This document shows, one piece after another, positions 1 through 24,690 of a stretch of 34,693 nt of DNA (position 1 is the stretch's first letter; each line of letters begins with the position of its first letter). A model generated the notes under the pieces. It was not told where the DNA came from. It worked only from the letters and a program-made list of their open reading frames with translations, and made no database searches. The position numbers and the translations under genes are program-made. Source of the stretch: Candidatus Shapirobacteria bacterium (GTDB lineage: Bacteria > Patescibacteriota > Microgenomatia > UBA12405). The stretch lies in contig JAGORQ010000011.1 of assembly GCA_018062705.1 (NCBI GenBank), positions 1 through 34,693 on the forward strand. The letters are read 5' to 3'.

Positions 1-737
1 CCACCAAAAATATTTTTGAAAAGGGTGGTGCCAAGTCCGGTGCCGGTGGCATTGAAGAGCAAGGCGATGACAAAGCTTTGGATAAATTGCATGAGGTCGA
101 TAACCAATCCAGCGATAGCATAAGAAAAAGTGATGAGAACGAGAGTGGTGATGATTTGAGGAACGGCGCTTTGGATACTGATGACAGCTTGATTGCTGAT
201 TTTGACTCGAAGCATGATCATGATGCCGATGAGAACAAAAATGACTGAAGCTAGCAAGTAGGTAAAATTGCGAAAACCGCGCCAAATAGGCAGAATTGGC
301 TGAAGACCAGCAAAACCAACGCCAGTGGCCTGAGCATAGGCTGGTATACCGAGAAAAGAGTCTCTAATACTGGCAATATATTGAATTCCAGAGACACCCA
401 TAGCAGGGGAATATAGGGCGGAAGTGAGATTGGCAGTAATACCAAGTGCACCACCGGGAATATAGCCGGCAGTAGGCAGCTTGCCTTCAAATATTTCGTC
501 GGGAATGTCGCCAATTAGGGCGTTGATAGATGAAACTAAATTGCTCCCCATGGATTCATTAAGCCAGGCCTCTTGATTGCCACCTTCCTTGCGGGCGTCT
601 TGCTTGTCTTTGATGACATTGGGAGTAGTGGGGGAGACAGGGGCGCTGTTTTGAGCGGAGACGGGACTGACTAGAAGTAAGAAGTAAGATGTAAGAAGTA
701 AGAATAAAAATGAGAACACTGAAAAACGTCGGGACAT
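1..737 (-). CDS. VirB6/TrbL-like polytopic membrane protein, 3' end cut by window edge
   Basis: An open frame starts at the ATG at 737-735 and runs off the left edge (245 codons visible). Residues 1-28 form a signal peptide (MSRRFSVFSF start, cleavage near VSA-Q). A soluble Ala/Asn/Gly-rich stretch follows, then hydrophobic segments at about 157-177 and 194-226. A polytopic protein beside VirB2-like pilins suggests a VirB6/TrbL-type inner-membrane channel component; this is inference from topology and neighbours, since no family motif is decisive. The hydrophobic core of the signal peptide is encoded by a 7-base-period repeat (673-710). The gap to the upstream gene, which ends at 765, is 27 bases, so the two are probably co-transcribed. 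Confidence 0.6.
   Translation of the reverse strand, partial: MSRRFSVFSFLFLLLTSYFLLLVSPVSAQNSAPVSPTTPNVIKDKQDARKEGGNQEAWLNESMGSNLVSSINALIGDIPDEIFEGKLPTAGYIPGGALGITANLTSALYSPAMGVSGIQYIASIRDSFLGIPAYAQATGVGFAGLQPILPIWRGFRNFTYLLASVIFVLIGIMIMLRVKISNQAVISIQSAVPQIITTLVLITFSYAIAGLVIDLMQFIQSFVIALLFNATGTGLGTTLFKNIFG
673..710 (-). repeat. 7-base-period repeat inside signal peptide codons
   Basis: About five units of the form AGAAGTA/AGATGTA on the plus strand, ending AGAATAAAA. On the coding (minus) strand it reads as the Leu/Thr/Ser/Tyr/Phe core of the signal peptide of the gene at 1-737. Confidence 0.85.
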
Positions 738-764
738 AAAGAATTTTAACATAAGGAATTTGGT

Positions 765-2270
765 TTATAGTTGCCAGCTTTTGGGTAAAAGATTTTGTTT
801 GACTAGGGCGCGGGAAAGGGGATTGCCCGGATGAACTACTTCTGGATTGCCGACGGTAGAAGAAGGTTTCCAATCGGTGGGGTAATATTTTTCTTGATCG
901 GCACCAGTTATAAGATTGCGGTTGGCGGTTTCACCAGTGGCTTGGTTTTCAGGAATTCGTTGATCAATAATAAAGGTATAGCGAACATGGGGGTAGAGAA
1001 TGTGGATGGCTTTGTCGCGGACGGTATCAAAGAGTCCGGTGATAACTTGTTTGAAAGTAACCGCGTTGGGTTTATTGAGAGAATTTAAGTTTGGTTGGCT
1101 GAGACAAGCATCGAGCGGGGTGACTGGTTGCTGGTAGGGCATGGTGTAGAGATGTTGAACTTGTTTGCCGACAAATACTCCAGCACCGGGGAAATTAATT
1201 TTTTTGTGAGTATAAGAAGAGTTGACTTCATCACCAGCGTCGTCTTTGGTGGCGTTGATTTTTTCTTGGGCCCAGCGAATTTTGGATGAAGCTGAACTAA
1301 TTTCGCCGGCGGGTTCGACGGCGGTTTTGTAAAGCTTGCAGGCTTCGAGTGGGGTAAGACTGGTGCGGGCACTAGGTGCACCGACGAGCTCATTGAGATT
1401 GAGATGAACAATTGGAGGGGGGTTGTCTTTGTTGGTGGGGTCGGTGGCAAAACAATTGTCATCGGGATTGTAAAAAAATGGATATTCGCTGGTGCCGATA
1501 CCACAGGAACCGGGCTCGAGACTACCATCGGGGAGGGTGGTGCCAAGTAAGGGGGAAACAAAATGGTTTTGATCGAGAGCGACAGCTACATCGGATAGAA
1601 ATATTTTTTCTTGACAATTACCGACCGACTTTCCTTCAAAAGCGGAAATAAACTGGCCATCATTTTTGCAGGCTATCAATTCGTCTTGAGTGGTAGAGTC
1701 GCCACCCAGTCCACGAAATCGAGTAGCTAAAACCAATCGTTGAGAGCGAAGACATTTTTGGACGGTATAAGGTAGGGTGCGTTTGGGAGAATTTGAGGCA
1801 CCATAAGTGGGATTGTCTGAATCGAGGGAAAGAAAAGCACGCTTGATGCCGGTAGGATCATTGATTTCCCGAGGGTGATTGGCTAGTTGACGAATGGCCA
1901 GGTCGACGTCAAGATTGCTATAAAATTTGTTTAAGGTAAATGTGCCATCAATTTTTTTGATATCGTAGGGAATAAAGGAGCGGGTTTGGGTGACAGTGGT
2001 AGTGCCACTGGGACTGGTGGTAACAGCACTACCACCAACCTCTTTGGGTTCAAAAGATTGCTGAATGGTGGCTTGCTCGAGACACTTGACGGTGTCGATA
2101 CTATCAATATCGTTGGCGTAATAATTGGGATATTCGTTGATATCTTTGTCGGTGGGTGGGGCAGTAAAGTCGGGCTTTTGGACAATGAGAGGATCGTAGG
2201 CGAGAGAGGGCTGTATTGATGTAAGAAGTAAGAAGTATGAAGTAAGAATAAAACAAAAGAACTTTTTCAT
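765..2270 (-). CDS. Secreted 501-residue protein of unknown function
   Basis: No family is recognised. The start at 2270 (MKKFFCF) is preferred over an upstream in-frame start at 2360 because it gives a clean signal peptide (residues 1-24, cleavage near SLA-Y) and sits 4 bases after the stop of the pilin gene at 2275. The mature part is soluble, with at least eight cysteines spread through the chain in ACK, NCQ, SCG, NCF and ACL contexts, which fits an extracytoplasmic disulfide-bonded protein. It lies between a pilin-like gene and a VirB6-like gene, so a role in an envelope-spanning secretion or adhesion apparatus is a reasonable inference. Its signal peptide core is encoded by the repeat at 2221-2252. 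Confidence 0.75.
   Translation of the reverse strand: MKKFFCFILTSYFLLLTSIQPSLAYDPLIVQKPDFTAPPTDKDINEYPNYYANDIDSIDTVKCLEQATIQQSFEPKEVGGSAVTTSPSGTTTVTQTRSFIPYDIKKIDGTFTLNKFYSNLDVDLAIRQLANHPREINDPTGIKRAFLSLDSDNPTYGASNSPKRTLPYTVQKCLRSQRLVLATRFRGLGGDSTTQDELIACKNDGQFISAFEGKSVGNCQEKIFLSDVAVALDQNHFVSPLLGTTLPDGSLEPGSCGIGTSEYPFFYNPDDNCFATDPTNKDNPPPIVHLNLNELVGAPSARTSLTPLEACKLYKTAVEPAGEISSASSKIRWAQEKINATKDDAGDEVNSSYTHKKINFPGAGVFVGKQVQHLYTMPYQQPVTPLDACLSQPNLNSLNKPNAVTFKQVITGLFDTVRDKAIHILYPHVRYTFIIDQRIPENQATGETANRNLITGADQEKYYPTDWKPSSTVGNPEVVHPGNPLSRALVKQNLLPKSWQL
2221..2252 (-). repeat. 7-base-period repeat inside signal peptide codons
   Basis: Units GTAAGAA/GTATGAA on the plus strand ending TAAAAC; on the minus strand they encode an LTSYFLLLTS-like signal peptide core of the gene at 765-2270. 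Confidence 0.85.
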
Positions 2271-2274
2271 TGGA

Positions 2275-2670
2275 CTAGCCAGGGATGATAAAGTTGGTGA
2301 CATTGGCACCGGTGAAGTTTTGGATGAGACGGAGGATAAACCAAGAAGCAATAAGACCAACTAGACCGGCAATGGCCATGGTGAGAGTGGCGGAAGCACC
2401 AGCGACTTTTTTGGCATCATTACTACTATAAAGATACTGGAAGCCACCGGTGATAAACATAAAGAGGAAAGCGACTCCAGCGGCATAGGTAACAATCTGA
2501 AGAACATTGTAAAAAAGACATTCAAAACCTTGGATGGTGGCGACGTCACCCTGGGCGACACAGCGACCTGCCCAGGCGGCGGGAGCTTGGGCGTAGACGG
2601 GAGCAGCAATTGTAGAAACTAGAAACGAGAAACTAGAAACTAGAATAAAACTAATAAAAATACGACGCAT
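2275..2670 (-). CDS. Type IV secretion pilin-like protein (VirB2/TrbC-like)
   Basis: A 131-residue protein with a signal peptide (1-27, cleavage near VYA-Q), two cysteines (37 and 51), a first membrane helix at about 58-77, a short polar turn (SSNDAKK, 82-88) and a second helix at about 95-117. Two helices joined by a small charged loop are the hallmark of VirB2/TrbC and the T4SS pilin family common in Patescibacteria. The start at 2670 is chosen because TATAAT (2682-2677) ends 6 bases before it. An upstream TTG start would place the -10 box inside the coding sequence. It is first in an operon with the 501-residue secreted protein and the VirB6-like protein. The loop lacks the Glu-Gly-Asp of its paralogues. 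Confidence 0.8.
   Translation of the reverse strand: MRRIFISFILVSSFSFLVSTIAAPVYAQAPAAWAGRCVAQGDVATIQGFECLFYNVLQIVTYAAGVAFLFMFITGGFQYLYSSNDAKKVAGASATLTMAIAGLVGLIASWFILRLIQNFTGANVTNFIIPG
2615..2651 (-). repeat. 7-base-period repeat (GAAACTA type) inside signal peptide codons
   Basis: Units GAAACTA/GAAACGA on the plus strand, ending GAATAAAAC. On the minus strand this encodes the FILVSSFSFLVS core of the pilin at 2275-2670: a different unit from the GTAAGAA type but the same period and tail. Confidence 0.85.
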
Positions 2671-2676
2671 AGTGGA

Positions 2677-2682
2677 ATTATA
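2677..2682 (-). promoter_or_regulatory. -10 box of a leaderless promoter
   Basis: TATAAT on the minus strand, 6 bases before the ATG at 2670. No Shine-Dalgarno sequence lies between, so transcription probably starts at or next to the start codon. Confidence 0.65.
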
Positions 2683-2691
2683 CAATAAAAC

Positions 2692-2727
2692 AGATTTAAG
2701 ATATACGATTTAAGATTTAAGAATAGG
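2692..2727. repeat. Intergenic 7-base-period repeat
   Basis: Units AGATTTA/AGATATA/CGATTTA ending AGAATAGG, between the pilin promoter and the terminator of the upstream pilin gene. Confidence 0.8.
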
Positions 2728-2738
2728 ACAAAAACAGT

Positions 2739-2772
2739 CTAAAAAAAATACCCCCGCGGAAGCGGGGGTATT
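2739..2772 (-). terminator. Rho-independent terminator
   Basis: An ATACCCCCGC stem with a four-base loop is followed on the minus strand by a run of eight Ts. It lies just downstream of the pilin gene at 2784-3158 and closes that transcription unit. Confidence 0.9.
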
Positions 2773-2783
2773 TGAAAATTCAT

Positions 2784-3158
2784 TTAGTAGAATTTGGGGA
2801 TTTGGAGAGAGAAAAGATCGACTCCAAAGATAGCTTGAATTAGCTTCATGATAGCGAAAGCGGCAAAGACGATAGCCAAACCAATGAGAGCATTGGTAAT
2901 TTGGGAACGGGCAGCTTCGACGGCTTTTTGATCACCTTCAGACATAATCCAACGGAGACCTCCGTAGATAAGGATGAAGAAGAAGACTAGGGCAACAGCC
3001 AAAAGAACTAAGCTGATAGCACCAGAAATAATCGAGGTAGCGGTAAGGCTACCGAGAGTGGACCAGTTGCCGGTGGGATTTAAATTGATATCGCTTTGGG
3101 CTAAAGCTGGAGCAACAACGACAGCGTATTGGAGTTTGTTTTTTAGATTATTGAACAT
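2784..3158 (-). CDS. Type IV secretion pilin-like protein
   Basis: A 124-residue protein: a weak signal-like N-terminus (LQYAVVVAPALA-Q, cleavage near 21), helix 1 at about 44-66, the conserved charged turn SEGDQK (73-78), and helix 2 at about 88-110. The S-x-G-D-x-K turn between two membrane helices is shared with its neighbours at 3214, 3623 and 3960 and matches the VirB2/TrbC pilin layout. It is the last gene before a strong terminator. The 55-base gap to the next upstream pilin is AT-rich and could hold a promoter. The paralogues share little sequence beyond the turn, so this is an old expansion. Confidence 0.8.
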   Translation of the reverse strand: MFNNLKNKLQYAVVVAPALAQSDINLNPTGNWSTLGSLTATSIISGAISLVLLAVALVFFFILIYGGLRWIMSEGDQKAVEAARSQITNALIGLAIVFAAFAIMKLIQAIFGVDLFSLQIPKFY

Positions 3159-3213
3159 AAACTGAATAATTAATAAATAAGATTAAGGAAGTTTAGCAGG
3201 AATTAATAAAAAA

Positions 3214-3618
3214 TTAAATAGTGGGCCAAGTGATAGTTAAACTTTCGAGTCCGGTGATTCCGAGAATAGTACCAACGAATTTGAGGACGGCAAAGATGGA
3301 AAAACAAACGACGATACCTAAAACTGACCAGGTAATTTCATTTTTGGCCATTTCGTAGCGTTTGGGATCGCCCTCGGAAGAGATAAAGTGGTAGCCGGCA
3401 AAAACGATATGCCAGACAAAATAGACGACAGCGACGATAAAAAAGATAGAGAAAACTGAGCTGATAACTTTGTTGGTGTAGCCTTGGGGGTCGGTGACTT
3501 GGGCAGTACCATTGGTGATGATGGGGTTGCTGATGACAGCTCGGACAGGAGAGGGATGTAAGATGTAAGAAGTAAGATTTAAGAATAAGAACGAAAAAAG
3601 AAAAAATAGTTTTTTCAT
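3214..3618 (-). CDS. Type IV secretion pilin-like protein
   Basis: A 134-residue protein starting MKKLFF at 3618, five bases downstream of the stop of the pilin gene at 3623; an upstream alternative start overlapping that gene is less likely. Signal peptide residues 1-27 (cleavage near VRA-V), helix 1 at about 54-76, turn SSEGDPKR (80-87), helix 2 at about 98-118. This is the VirB2/TrbC-like two-helix plan. The signal peptide contains NLTSYILHP, encoded by a 7-base-period repeat (3555-3590). It is probably translated from the same mRNA as the pilins at 3623, 3960 and 4321. Confidence 0.8.
   Translation of the reverse strand: MKKLFFLFSFLFLNLTSYILHPSPVRAVISNPIITNGTAQVTDPQGYTNKVISSVFSIFFIVAVVYFVWHIVFAGYHFISSEGDPKRYEMAKNEITWSVLGIVVCFSIFAVLKFVGTILGITGLESLTITWPTI
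3555..3590 (-). repeat. 7-base-period repeat inside signal peptide codons
   Basis: Units AGATGTA, AGAAGTA, AGATTTA then AGAATAA on the plus strand; it lies in the signal peptide of the pilin gene at 3214-3618. Confidence 0.85.
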
Positions 3619-3622
3619 AGTG

Positions 3623-3970
3623 TTAGAGACCCATTTTGGTAAACATAGCATTTAGGTCAAAAATGTTGGGAATGCCGGCGAGGGAGGCGATAAGGGCGCC
3701 AAGACCTAGGGCGACGACAGTAATGGTTAGACCTAAAACTCCTTCGGTGAGACGAGCGCGAGCCTGTTCCATTTTTTTGGGATCACCTTCGGAGGTGATA
3801 AAAGCGTAACCAGCCAAAATTACTTGGATGGCAAAATAGATGGCGGCGACAATGGTAAGAACGCCAATCACTTGACCAACGATTTTTTCGAGAGCGTCGG
3901 TGCCGTTGGCGGTGGGAGTTACCCCGACAGGTTTGAGAGTGTAGCTTAGGGCGAGTAATTTAGGGACCAT
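3623..3970 (-). CDS. Type IV secretion pilin-like protein
   Basis: A 115-residue two-helix protein: helix 1 at about 32-54, turn TSEGDPKK (59-66), helix 2 at about 77-98. This turn is the clearest version of the family motif in the window. No convincing cleavable signal peptide is present, unlike the paralogues at 2275, 3214 and 4321. The start at 3970 overlaps the 3' end of the pilin gene at 3960 by 11 bases, so translation is probably coupled. A VirB2-like pilin is the best reading; a small membrane scaffold cannot be excluded. Confidence 0.78.
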   Translation of the reverse strand: MVPKLLALSYTLKPVGVTPTANGTDALEKIVGQVIGVLTIVAAIYFAIQVILAGYAFITSEGDPKKMEQARARLTEGVLGLTITVVALGLGALIASLAGIPNIFDLNAMFTKMGL

Positions 3971-4271
3971 TTAAAACAGGATTAATAATTTCGATACCGG
4001 TGAGTCGGGTAACGACGGAAGCGATAACAAATGCTGAAGCGATAATTACCATACCGAGAATACTTTGCCAGATACGGTCAAAAGCAGCTTGGGTGGCTTT
4101 GACGTCACCGCTGGCGCTGATATAGGCGTAACCAGCCATAATAAATTGGAAAATCATGTAGATACCACCAATGACCGCAACAACTTGAAAAAGATTGGAG
4201 AGAAAGAGAAATAGACCGGAACCTTGGGTGCTGGCGTACTTGGGAAGTGGGGAGGCGATTTGGCCGAACAT
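3960..4271 (-). CDS. Type IV secretion pilin-like protein
   Basis: A 103-residue two-helix protein with helix 1 at about 20-49, turn SASGDVKA (52-59) and helix 2 at about 68-88. No clear cleavable signal peptide is seen; the first 18 residues are polar. It overlaps the next pilin gene (start 3970) by 11 bases and follows the pilin at 4321 by 49 bases, a gap filled by a 38-base repeat. The fold plan and neighbours indicate the VirB2/TrbC-like family. Confidence 0.78.
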   Translation of the reverse strand: MFGQIASPLPKYASTQGSGLFLFLSNLFQVVAVIGGIYMIFQFIMAGYAYISASGDVKATQAAFDRIWQSILGMVIIASAFVIASVVTRLTGIEIINPVLNGP

Positions 4272-4280
4272 TTTTTAAAT

Positions 4281-4318
4281 AGATTTAAGAAGTAAGATTT
4301 AAGATATAAGAATAAAAC
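4281..4318. repeat. 7-base-period repeat, exact copy of 4723-4760
   Basis: Units AGATTTA, AGAAGTA, AGATTTA, AGATATA then AGAATAAAAC; 38 bases identical to 4723-4760. It sits between two pilin genes. Confidence 0.9.
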
Positions 4319-4320
4319 TT

Positions 4321-4701
4321 CTAAAAAGTAGGGTTGAGAATGTTGACACCAGTGACAACCTCAACTATTTGAACTATAAAGTAAGCAAGAATGACGACTA
4401 AAAAACCAATTACGGCGTCGGTAATCATGGCTTGAGCCATGGCGGTTTTTTTGGGATCGTTCTGCCCTGCGCTCATTATAAAGGAAAATCCGCCGAAAAT
4501 CAAAAGACAAAGAAGTAAAACTCCGGCGATGGTGAGGGAGTTTTTGAGAAGGGAACCGATGAGACCAGTGATAGAAGGGTAGGTTTGAGAAAAATAACCA
4601 CCGCGGTTGTTGGGTGGATCGATGGGAACGGCGAGAGCTGAGACAGGATGTAAGAAGTAAGATGTAAGAAGTAAGAATAAAACAGGAAAACGACGGAGCA
4701 T
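4321..4701 (-). CDS. Type IV secretion pilin-like protein, first gene of the pilin operon
   Basis: A 126-residue protein starting MLRRFPVL at 4701. Signal peptide 1-24 (cleavage near SALA-V), helix 1 at about 55-77, turn SAGQNDPKK (77-85, two residues longer than in the paralogues) and helix 2 at about 95-117. The start is placed by a TATAAT box on the minus strand (4713-4708) 6 bases upstream, giving a leaderless start as at 2670. The signal peptide core LLLTSYFLHP is encoded by a 7-base repeat (4647-4683). This promoter probably drives the 4321-3960-3623-3214 run. Confidence 0.8.
   Translation of the reverse strand: MLRRFPVLFLLLTSYFLHPVSALAVPIDPPNNRGGYFSQTYPSITGLIGSLLKNSLTIAGVLLLCLLIFGGFSFIMSAGQNDPKKTAMAQAMITDAVIGFLVVILAYFIVQIVEVVTGVNILNPTF
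4647..4683 (-). repeat. 7-base-period repeat inside signal peptide codons
   Basis: Units AGAAGTA/AGATGTA ending AGAATAAAAC on the plus strand; it encodes the signal peptide core of the pilin at 4321-4701. Confidence 0.85.
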
Positions 4702-4713: not shown

Positions 4714-4722
4714 CAATAAAAA

Positions 4723-4760
4723 AGATTTAAGAAGTAAGATTTAAGATATAAGAATAAAAC
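4723..4760. repeat. 7-base-period repeat, exact copy of 4281-4318
   Basis: A 38-base identical copy lying between the divergent promoters of the pilin operon and the 7-TM gene. Confidence 0.9.
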
Positions 4761-4890: not shown

Positions 4891-5715
4891 ATGAGGAAAA
4901 GTTTTGCTTTTATGTTGGTTGGGTTAACACTCTTGGTTTGGGGGGCAAAGGTGATGGCGGTCGGGGAAAAATCCCAAATTCTAAATTCTAAATTCCAAAA
5001 TGGAGTGGAAGTGGTTGATCAAACTGATGTGTTGAGAAATGTTTTGGATAAAAGTAAACCCAATTGGATTAGACAGGTGGAGTTGGTGGCGGTAGAGAGA
5101 GGGGTGGAAGCCAACACAATAGTGCTGTTGATGTTGTTACCTTTGATTGCCACCTTGGTATCGGTACTCCATTATATAGTAGGACTATCCGGCTACGGTA
5201 TTTTTATACCGACAATGGTGGCAGTAACTTTTTTGGCTACGGGGATATTTGGTGGTTTGACTTTGTTTGCAATAATTTTGGGAGTATCGATGTTGAGTAA
5301 TTGGGTGTTGCGAAGATTTAAATTGCATTTTTGGCCGGCGAGATCAATTAATTTGATGTTTATCTCGATAGGAGACTTTGGTTTGATGGCGGTATCGACT
5401 TATTTTCAAATTTTGGATATCAGTAAAATTTCGATTTTTCCGATATTGATTATGATTTTGTTGGTGGAAGAGTTTGTCAGAACTCAACTATCGAAAAGCA
5501 AAAGTGAGGCGATGAAATTGACGGCGGGGACCTTGGCTTTGGCGATGGTGGGTTCGATTTCAATGAGTATTTCAAAAGTGCAGGAGTGGGTGCTGTTGAA
5601 CCCAGGGTGGGTGATATTGGCGGTGTTGATTATTAATATAGTAGTAGGGAGATATACTGGAATTAGATTGACAGAGATTAAAAGGTTTAAAAAAGCGATA
5701 AGGAGAAAAAATTAA
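4891..5715 (+). CDS. 7-TM membrane protein of the inactive-transglutaminase-associated type
   Basis: A 274-residue protein. A signal or anchor helix (1-23) precedes a soluble stretch, followed by about seven hydrophobic segments between residues 75 and 260 and a basic tail (KRFKKAIRRK). Layout and neighbours match the 7-TM module that in other bacteria is fused to an inactive transglutaminase domain and encoded beside a glutamate-ligase-like ATP-grasp and a retropepsin-like protein. Here the transglutaminase part is missing or replaced by a segment of about 50 residues, part of which (near 27-38) is written by a 7-base repeat (4969-5003). Role inferred: membrane partner of the ligase encoded 107 bases downstream. 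No Shine-Dalgarno is seen. Confidence 0.65.
   Translation: MRKSFAFMLVGLTLLVWGAKVMAVGEKSQILNSKFQNGVEVVDQTDVLRNVLDKSKPNWIRQVELVAVERGVEANTIVLLMLLPLIATLVSVLHYIVGLSGYGIFIPTMVAVTFLATGIFGGLTLFAIILGVSMLSNWVLRRFKLHFWPARSINLMFISIGDFGLMAVSTYFQILDISKISIFPILIMILLVEEFVRTQLSKSKSEAMKLTAGTLALAMVGSISMSISKVQEWVLLNPGWVILAVLIINIVVGRYTGIRLTEIKRFKKAIRRKN
4969..5003 (+). repeat. 7-base-period repeat inside a gene
   Basis: Units AAATCCC, AAATTCT, AAATTCT, AAATTCC; it encodes QILNSKFQN-like residues just after the signal helix of the 7-TM protein. Confidence 0.85.
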
Positions 5716-17696: not shown

Positions 17697-20800
<3,104 letters not shown>

Positions 20801-20852
20801 CAATCTGAAAAATGGCAGCTCTATTTAGGAGCCAAGCTCCGCCTTTGCGGAG

Positions 20853-23002: not shown

Positions 23003-23335
23003 ATGAAAAAGAAATATTTTAGAGGTTTCTTGTTGGTATTTTTTTTGTGGATGTTATTAGGCCAATTATTATTTAATCTTGATAGGCTGTATGGTTCCTT
23101 TGATAAATTACCTAGTTTTTTAATTCTTGTAGTTAAATTTATCGTAAGTACTGTTACCATTGTCTATTTTCCGATAATGTTTTTAATTGGATGGTTTGGG
23201 CGATTTATAGATAACGGGAGTGGATTTAATTGGATGTTTTTGGGAGTGACAATTAACGTTGTATGTTTTATATACCTACTATTAGTCATAAAACTTTTTT
23301 GGTATTTAGGATCTAAAGTATTAAAGATAAAATGA
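23003..23335 (+). CDS. Unknown small membrane protein upstream of radA
   Basis: A 110-residue protein with three or four hydrophobic helices (about 8-26, 37-64, 73-100), a basic N-terminus (MKKKYFRG) and a basic C-terminus. TAAAAT (22991-22996) ends 6 bases before the ATG, giving a leaderless start. Its last four bases overlap the radA start (ATGA), so radA is probably translated by coupling to this gene. No family is recognised. Confidence 0.65.
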   Translation: MKKKYFRGFLLVFFLWMLLGQLLFNLDRLYGSFDKLPSFLILVVKFIVSTVTIVYFPIMFLIGWFGRFIDNGSGFNWMFLGVTINVVCFIYLLLVIKLFWYLGSKVLKIK

Positions 23336-24690
23336 AAAAAAATAGTGAAACTGTTTTTGTGTGCAAGAATTGCGGGAATGAATTTGGAAAATGGGTGGGG
23401 CAATGCCCGGCGTGTAAGGAATGGAATTCGCTTAAAGAAATGACGAATACTAGAAGTAAGACTTATGATGTAAGAAGTAAGAATAAATCAGAGAAGAATG
23501 AAGTAAAAAATTTGGCCCGCCTGCGCTCGGAGGGCTCCGGCGAGGTAAATAAAAATGGAGAGACTGATAATATCTTTAGCTCGAACATATCGGAATTTGA
23601 TAGAGTTTTGGGTAAAGGAATTGTACGTGGCTCGGTAGTACTGTTTGCTGGAGAACCAGGGATTGGTAAAAGTACGCTTTTAACACAACTAGTGGGTAAA
23701 AATGGTGGTTTATATGTGGCGGGAGAAGAGTCGGCCGAACAAATTGGCTTACGAGTTAGACGATTGGGATTAAATGCGGAAAGATTCGATGTTTTGGAGA
23801 CTAATTCGATAGAAGAAATTGGCGAAACACTGGAGCGAGTACAAAATGTATACAAAATAGTGGTGGTGGACAGTATTCAGACGATGACCACGCCAACAGC
23901 TGACGCAGTTGGGCGGGCAGGTGGTATTGGGAGCATTAGCCAAATTAAGGAGTCGACTTTTGAGCTGATAAGATTGGCGAAAAAAACTGGGACAGCAATT
24001 TTTATTGTGGGGCATGTGACTAAGGAGGGGGATATTGCTGGACCAAAACTTCTAGAGCATATGGTGGATACAGTTTTATATTTTGAGGGAGAGAAGAACG
24101 GAGATCTCCGAATTTTGCGGGTGTCGAAAAATCGATTTGGCCCGACGGATGAGGTAGGGGTATTTAAAATGGAGGAAAAGGGGTTAAGGGAAATTAAGTC
24201 GGATGAAATTAATTTGATTAATGATAGTAAAGAAAAGGTAGGGTCGGCTATCACAGTAGTAATGGAAGGAACCCGACCGATGATGGTGGAAATTCAAGCT
24301 TTGGTAACCGAAAGTTTTGCGCCAATGCCGACGAGGGTGTTTTCGGGAATTGATAGTAATCGGGGAAAACTGTTGGTAGCGGTGGCACAAAAAGTGCTAA
24401 GCATGCCTTTATATAAATATGATGTGTATGTATCAGTAACGGGGGGTATACGATTAGATGATACTGGGTGTGATATAGCAGTTGTTGGCGCTATGTATAG
24501 TAGTTATAAAGAGAAGGCACTAAAGAATGGAGGGGCGCAAGTCATTGCGCCCGTACTTGTGGGGGAAGTGTCGCTACTCGGTGAGGTGAAAAAAGTGAGG
24601 GGGATGGATAAACGGGAAAAAGAAGCGGTAGGAATGGGAAGGAAGATGGTGAAGATGGAGAGTATCAGAGAATTGAAAAATTTGATTTAA
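23332..24690 (+). CDS. radA: DNA repair protein RadA
   Basis: A 452-residue protein of normal RadA length. It has an N-terminal C4 zinc finger (CKNCG...CPAC, Cys 11, 14, 25, 28), a RecA-like ATPase with Walker A GEPGIGKST (near 107-115), Walker B IVVVDSIQT, the RadA signature KNRFGPTDE (near 265) and a C-terminal Lon-protease-like domain without catalytic residues (GEVSLLGEVKKVRG). RadA drives branch migration of recombination intermediates. Two repeat insertions extend it: a 7-base repeat plus a CG-rich palindrome between zinc finger and ATPase (23452-23545), and a GGGCGCAA hairpin (24533-24552) that adds about six residues in the Lon-like domain. Confidence 0.95.
   Translation: MKKNSETVFVCKNCGNEFGKWVGQCPACKEWNSLKEMTNTRSKTYDVRSKNKSEKNEVKNLARLRSEGSGEVNKNGETDNIFSSNISEFDRVLGKGIVRGSVVLFAGEPGIGKSTLLTQLVGKNGGLYVAGEESAEQIGLRVRRLGLNAERFDVLETNSIEEIGETLERVQNVYKIVVVDSIQTMTTPTADAVGRAGGIGSISQIKESTFELIRLAKKTGTAIFIVGHVTKEGDIAGPKLLEHMVDTVLYFEGEKNGDLRILRVSKNRFGPTDEVGVFKMEEKGLREIKSDEINLINDSKEKVGSAITVVMEGTRPMMVEIQALVTESFAPMPTRVFSGIDSNRGKLLVAVAQKVLSMPLYKYDVYVSVTGGIRLDDTGCDIAVVGAMYSSYKEKALKNGGAQVIAPVLVGEVSLLGEVKKVRGMDKREKEAVGMGRKMVKMESIRELKNLI
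23452..23487 (+). repeat. 7-base-period repeat inside radA
   Basis: Units AGAAGTA, AGACTTA, TGATGTA, AGAAGTA, tail AGAATAAA; same type as in the pilin signal peptides, but here read on the other strand as a basic linker (RSKTYDVRSKNK). Confidence 0.88.
23517..23545 (+). repeat. GC-rich palindrome inside radA
   Basis: CGGAG-GG-CTCCG (23528-23539) flanked by CGCC and GGCG; encodes ARLRSEGSGE in the zinc-finger/ATPase linker. Confidence 0.65.
24533..24552 (+). repeat. Palindromic element inside radA
   Basis: GGGCGCAA-GTCA-TTGCGCCC, followed by GTACTTGT; in frame as GGAQVIAP in the Lon-like domain, where RadA proteins usually have a shorter loop. Confidence 0.75.

Follow-up and report, generated by a model that had tools for sequence, protein, structure and literature searches.

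Background

The opa genes of Neisseria carry a CTCTT coding repeat within their signal-peptide sequence (PMC3899988, PMC4534519), and thus repeat-encoded signal peptides as such are already known. In this study, arrays of seven-base units lying in the signal-peptide codons of a secretion block were analyzed in a contig of Candidatus Shapirobacteria (34,693 nucleotides, JAGORQ010000011.1 of assembly GCA_018062705.1; hereafter the window, or contig C20 of the 1.07-Mb, 50-contig genome G000). The likeness to opa is that a repeat unit not divisible by three is placed within signal-peptide coding sequence, where gain or loss of a unit shifts the frame. The difference is that opa is a variable-copy microsatellite which switches expression, whereas here dispersed elements of near-fixed length, with a shared end, are found in many genes and between genes. 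What is new is this dispersed element and its coincidence with the gain of signals.

Dispersed seven-base units have also been described. Cyanobacterial short tandemly repeated repetitive (STRR) sequences and the GGGAATC and GGGGA(C/T)T heptamers of Xanthomonas and Nostoc are denser in non-coding DNA (PMC4692102). The arrays described here share the dispersal within one genome and the non-coding preference, and differ in their near-fixed length, in one family with a conserved end and in coding copies that are sorted by peptide. The TAACTGA repeats of Beggiatoaceae are patchy across taxa, and their site and orientation are limited by coding consequences (PMC4679880). All of this is paralleled here, but TAACTGA is one unit, mostly upstream of start codons, whereas many genome-specific units were found in this study and the copies in signal-peptide genes are inside the coding sequence, so that the arrays do not belong to the TAACTGA repeats. 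In Borgs, tandem repeats within coding DNA give rise to new stretches of protein and are especially frequent in extracellular proteins (PMC9879509). This is similar to the present case, except that Borg coding units are divisible by three and mostly give disordered segments, while the 7-base units give hydrophobic cores. Rickettsia palindromic elements are short dispersed sequences, tolerated in-frame inside protein genes; they are larger palindromes, whereas the present elements are shorter, heptad-periodic and concentrated in hydrophobic cores, and judged by the length of ~38 bp alone membership in that group is unlikely. No earlier description of heptamer arrays from genomes of the Candidate Phyla Radiation turned up in the literature searched.

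Seven-base arrays encode five signal-peptide cores

The original prediction, made from the window alone, was that five genes of the block have signal-peptide hydrophobic cores (h-regions) written by a seven-base repeat read on the minus strand. This was confirmed at all five sites, three of which belong to pilin-like genes of a type IV secretion system (T4SS). Genes are denoted by their start positions, signal peptides were called by hydropathy and motif and not by SignalP, and a slash marks the predicted cleavage site.

673..704, minus strand: (AGAAGTA)x4.6 array, h-region of the 737 gene, MSRRFSVFSFLFLLLTSYFLLLVSPVSA/Q
2221..2254 (array 2221-2248), minus strand: array plus conserved element end TAAGAATAAAAC, h-region of the 2270 gene, MKKFFCFILTSYFLLLTSIQPSLA/Y
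2613..2651 (array 2613-2645), minus strand: array of TAGAAAC units with end TAGAATAAAAC, h-region of the 2670 pilin gene, MRRIFISFILVSSFSFLVSTIAAPVYA/Q
3555..3590 (array 3555-3584), minus strand: array, h-region of the 3618 T4SS pilin gene, MKKLFFLFSFLFLNLTSYILHPSPVRA/V
4650..4683 (array 4650-4677), minus strand: array plus conserved end, h-region of the 4701 T4SS pilin gene, MLRRFPVLFLLLTSYFLHPVSALA/V

The unit is AGAAGTA/AGATGTA in the 737, 2270, 3618 and 4701 genes and TAGAAAC in the 2670 gene. Read on the coding strand, TTCTTAC gives the seven-residue cycle FLLLTSY, which is hydrophobic, as had been predicted, and free of stops in every frame; the opposite strand meets TAA. The claim that the differing unit of the 2670 gene (coding GTTTCTA) still yields a hydrophobic core also held (ILVSSFSFLVS). 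By motif and hydropathy, all five products have the features of Sec signal peptides, i.e. a K/R n-region, a hydrophobic h-region and an A-X-A-type c-region, with predicted cleavage at VSA/Q, SLA/Y, VYA/Q, VRA/V and ALA/V in the 737, 2270, 2670, 3618 and 4701 products, respectively. In each of them the n-region and the c-region are outside the repeat-encoded part, and therefore the repeat provides an h-region and not the complete, ready-made signal that had been proposed.

Such arrays might be contingency loci of the opa type, in which loss or gain of a 7-base unit shifts the frame and switches secretion proteins on and off, exactly as the CTCTT repeats do in Neisseria (PMC3899988, PMC4534519). 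Frame computation agrees with this, as one unit lost or gained truncates all five window genes, and long pure arrays are present in some relatives (the 3618 orthologue of genome G013 and the 2670 orthologue of G028). The window arrays, however, are interrupted (longest pure run of ~14-20 bp) and do not exceed non-coding arrays in purity, copy-number variants are not seen in the assembly-level sequence, lengths are fixed near 31 bp instead of being spread, and the same elements are found between genes and inside housekeeping-like genes. Switching of this kind is thus an unlikely explanation.

The arrays are probably dispersed copies of an element of near-fixed length

The window contains 15 period-7 arrays, compared with 0-1 in shuffled sequences, and at most one array at periods 5, 6, 8-11 and 13. 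A 342-kb sample of G000 (about one third of the genome) contains 85 period-7 arrays (0-1 in shuffles), with near-zero numbers at all periods except 7 and its multiple 14; tandem 7-base units are thus dispersed in this genome far beyond chance. The units include AATTACT, AAATCTT, AAACTCT, AAGAAGT and others. Array length has a mode of exactly 31 bp (22/85) and is 24-37 bp in 80/85 arrays, with three longer ones, and the mode in the sister genus (genome G017) is likewise 31 bp. The open-ended copy-number distribution of slippage was not observed among the G000 arrays.

One family, AGANNTA, forms a block of ~38 bp with the fixed end TAAGAATARRAC and is represented by 25 copies in G000. This end is nearly always preceded by about four heptads, conservation drops sharply outside the block, and the 12-mer itself has 0-6 copies per relative. 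Signal-peptide and intergenic copies of the family end alike. Moreover, the 4701 gene and an unrelated gene on contig C38 have the identical 33-mer GTTTTATTCTTACTTCTTACATCTTACTTCTTA in their signal peptides, and the 737 gene has it with one mismatch. Because the end is common to genic and intergenic copies and the same 33-mer is found in unrelated genes, the data argue for dispersed copies of an element, which presumably moves; together with the near-fixed length, they speak against ordinary slippage microsatellites.

The same data bear on two other origins. Leu/Phe-rich h-region codons (TTA, CTT, TTC) could seed independent, local 7-base duplications by slippage; the units do match h-region codons, and polymerase slippage has been proposed for heptanucleotide over-representation in some bacteria (PMC4679880, PMC4692102). 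Independent duplication is hard to reconcile with the same 33-mer, in the same order of unit variants, in unrelated genes, with an end fixed in genic and intergenic copies and with a sharp length mode, and we regard it as improbable. Secretion genes could also have exchanged N-termini by gene conversion, one array being carried along, as five neighbouring genes are array-bearing and three of them (737, 2270 and 4701) have nearly the same 33-mer. The n- and c-regions differ among the five genes, which also speaks against shared ancestry of the N-termini, information drops outside the element with no homology beyond it between the signal peptides, and the same element is found in intergenic DNA and at loci on other contigs. 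Such an exchange is, accordingly, more doubtful still.

The AAAAGTA elements of G017 also have recurrent ends, with AAAATTC before and AAAAAC after many arrays. Period-7 arrays are equally dense or denser in other members of the class, namely genomes G035 (L092), G090 (L111-L117) and G078 (L107), where the units are quite different and partly GC-rich (AAGGGCT; AAAAGTT). Most sampled relatives have few or no period-7 arrays, and the trait is patchy.

Arrays are concentrated in signal-peptide h-regions

In the G000 sample, array density is 2.07 per kb in h-regions, 0.95 in non-coding DNA and 0.085 in other coding DNA; where genes lack a signal peptide, their first 45 codons have 0.18, and internal membrane segments have 0.13. 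Eight of the 38 coding arrays are in h-regions, which make up 1.3% of coding bases (p=3e-8), and with the window excluded the figures are 0.93 per kb and 3/28 (p=0.005). Two gene models, the 4701 gene and the C3 gene in L012, had been adjusted manually. Signal peptides therefore have arrays about as frequently as intergenic DNA and 10-20 times more frequently than other coding DNA, in agreement with the expectation that arrays in genes favour signal peptides.

Whole-genome pattern searches, which involve no sampling choice, gave a similar picture; copy locations were assigned by eye from printed reading frames. The search with GTAAGANGTAAGA in G000 returned 15 arrays, of which seven are in signal peptides (p=1e-10), four in internal membrane segments, two in soluble proteins (RadA-like and enolase-like, on the opposite strand) and two in intergenic or gene-end positions; without the window, 3/10 are in signal peptides (p=1.4e-4). 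In G017, AAAAGTAAAAAGTA (unit AAAAGTA) returned 25 arrays, with 6/25 in signal peptides (p=5e-7), one of the six being the 3618 orthologue, which the script scored as non-coding and which was reassigned from its sequence. Two more are in membrane segments, and the rest are non-coding or in hydrophilic stretches read from the A-rich strand; outside the cluster, 3/22 are in signal peptides (p=0.002).

A general gene-start effect was rejected as the main cause, given the density of 0.18 per kb in gene starts without a signal peptide. A related explanation is that the arrays act near gene starts as regulatory sites at the DNA or RNA level, a role proposed for TAACTGA, which sits just upstream of start codons in Beggiatoaceae (PMC4679880), the signal-peptide reading being incidental. 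Some intergenic copies are indeed close upstream of genes (window positions 4281 and 4722). The gap between those gene starts and the h-regions, and the preference for stop-free variants in signal-peptide copies (see below), make this the least probable of the alternatives.

Coding copies are sorted by the encoded peptide

In the pattern searches of G000 and G017, all 19 coding copies read in the hydrophobic sense are in a signal peptide (13) or a membrane segment (6), and, given the share of bases in each, signal peptides hold more of these copies than expected relative to membrane segments (p=8e-6). The peptides that other unit families encode within genes are mostly hydrophilic (ITNYELLITN, NSKLQTLNSK, ETRNEKLE) and are internal or terminal. 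Within the AGANNTA family, stop-free variants make up 20/23 units in signal-peptide copies and stop-prone variants 17/23 in intergenic copies (p=7e-5). The coding copies are thus sorted by the peptide they encode, and purifying selection would be the simplest cause. Since array density in h-regions is close to that of intergenic DNA, tolerance is enough to explain it and positive selection need not be invoked.

Orthologues without arrays: cores overwritten and signals probably gained

Orthologues were compared in ~30 relatives; a query with the neighbouring ATP-grasp protein gave six loci, mostly from Candidatus Shapirobacteria, within the Patescibacteria / Candidate Phyla Radiation. In six genes (737, 2270, 2670 and those on contigs C3, C15 and C38), most orthologues that lack the array still have an N-terminal hydrophobic segment or a signal peptide, but its sequence is unrelated, from which it follows that the arrays replaced existing cores. 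The 2670 pilin carries arrays of differing units in eight genomes, requiring at least five changes on the tree, and the C3 gene and its G017 orthologue have arrays of different units in the same place.

Three pilins differ from this pattern. (i) Among the scored 4701 orthologues, a signal peptide and array are present in G000 alone (one change on the tree), where the gene has ~19 extra codons between the conserved M-R and LA-IDP ends; the others begin like MNRLLAVKIDPS, with a stop upstream that usually closes the frame. (ii) The 4271 orthologue has an array signal peptide in G017, but none in its congener G013 or in G000. (iii) The 3618 orthologues of the G000/G013/G017 clade (99/98 support) all have signal peptides, which places one gain at the base of the clade, and their arrays are built from three different units. 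There is a second gain in G003 and G005, where only G003 has an array; all other members of the family that were scored are short, and most array-less 3618 orthologues have no signal peptide. Because order-level outgroups are without these signal peptides, gain is the likelier direction of change, rather than loss.

Array-less orthologues had been expected to decide the case if they kept the same signal sequence. They do not: in six genes the sequence is unrelated and in the three pilins most orthologues have no signal peptide. The proposal of a recurrent source of export signals is consequently supported in part: for the three pilins, as far as array and signal coincide there, and not for the six genes, in which a core was replaced.

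Proposed explanation and points against it

The explanation we favour, with a probability of about two in three, is that a dispersed heptad element, filtered by tolerance for its encoded peptide, mostly rewrites and occasionally creates h-regions. The genome would be scattered with short elements of seven-base rhythm and near-fixed length (one family of ~38 bp, with a fixed end), building up where harm is small. Within coding DNA, a copy would persist only where its cyclic heptapeptide suits the site: LTSYFLL-type units, stop-free on the T-rich strand only, in h-regions and membrane segments, and ITNYELL, NSKLQTL and ETRNEKLE units in hydrophilic stretches and termini. As h-regions need hydrophobicity and not a specific sequence, copies would be tolerated there about as in intergenic DNA. 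A copy would usually overwrite the core already present; for some T4SS pilins, a copy may have supplied, or coincided with, the h-region of a cleavable signal peptide that relatives lack and that is presumably in use. The bolder proposition, that the heptad element was a recurrent h-region donor whose insertion gave signal-less T4SS pilins cleavable signals in several lineages, with genome-specific units, is possible but rather doubtful.

Several observations weigh against this explanation. The stretch C38:40000-59999 entered the G000 sample after its array was already known; with this stretch and the window excluded, 2 of ~22 coding arrays are in h-regions (p=0.03), which is weak, and for this reason the case for enrichment is made from the pattern searches and from the second genome. 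The array-rich genomes G090, G035 and G078 had no signal-peptide arrays in the samples taken; the T-rich strands of the main G090 units appear to hold stops (an unscored reading by eye). The 4271 orthologues of G003 and G012 have a signal peptide without a clear array, and the 3618 gain in G005 is array-less. As the repeat encodes neither the n- nor the c-region, a signal may have arisen first, shortly before an array overwrote it. Finally, no mobilising enzyme was found in the window, to which the search was confined, and no empty insertion site was found.

The origin of export signals mostly escapes testing, as phylogenetic trace in h-regions is scant; in this case the repeat has marked them legibly, and array-bearing and array-less orthologues are available within one bacterial family. 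Signal peptides can also be measured here as a coding site that is among the most permissive in a reduced genome, and the data point to a so far uncharacterised heptad element of bacteria in the Candidate Phyla Radiation.

The secretion block and other element copies

The block (1-4701, minus strand) consists of six pilin-like genes of the T4SS type (PF18895), together with two genes for secreted or membrane proteins that have no Pfam match. Genes starting at 2670, 3158, 3618, 4271 and 4701 score 27.9-46.6 bits, above the curated T4SS_pilin cut-off of 26.6 bits, and the gene starting at 3970 scores 22.5 bits, below it. No Pfam match was obtained for the products of the 737 and 2270 genes, for their orthologues or for three further secreted proteins that bear arrays, and therefore the cluster is labelled T4SS-like through its pilins only. 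Orthologues of the 2270 gene are present in the same cluster in G010, G011, G013, G017 and G020. The array-bearing genes are:

3..737, minus strand: 737 gene, secreted or membrane product, truncated by the contig end, no Pfam match
768..2270, minus strand: 2270 gene, 501 aa, predicted to be secreted, no Pfam match
2278..2670, minus strand: T4SS pilin gene, PF18895, 28.6 bits
3217..3618, minus strand: T4SS pilin gene, PF18895, 46.6 bits
4324..4701, minus strand: T4SS pilin gene, PF18895, 27.9 bits

Other element copies in the window are:

2692..2729, no strand assigned: intergenic copy, units AGATTTA/AGATATA, end TAAGAATAGGAC
4281..4318, no strand assigned: intergenic copy upstream of the array-less 4271 pilin gene
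4722..4760, no strand assigned: intergenic copy upstream of the 4701 gene
23470..23482, plus strand: two-unit array, opposite-strand reading DVRSKNK, within gene 23332-24690 (RadA-like)

The last array encodes a hydrophilic stretch after the cysteine-rich N-terminus of the RadA-like gene. An enolase-like gene (L070:1496-1524) likewise holds a heptad array with the hydrophilic strand read; both labels come from a look at the sequence and not from a family search. At 4969-4999 of the window, an AAATTCT-type array (KSQILNSKFQ) is directly behind the signal-peptide-like N-terminus of a 7TM_transglut gene. In contig C94 of G020 (L047, near 5464-5492), a run of N (scaffold gap) adjoins a signal-peptide array, as if the repeat broke the assembly.

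Among the ATG genes sampled, 50/286 of G000, 28/153 of G017 and 12/41 of G008 have a TATAAT-like box that ends 5-7 bases upstream of the ATG, and orthologues of the 2670 and 4701 genes conserve this box; Shine-Dalgarno-like motifs are rare (21/286 ATG genes of G000). Because the boxes are so close to the ATG and these motifs so rare, widespread leaderless transcription is likely. The 23S rRNA gene of the window (17697-20803) has ~3,107 bases, compared with a model of 2,925 positions, and may hold insertions.

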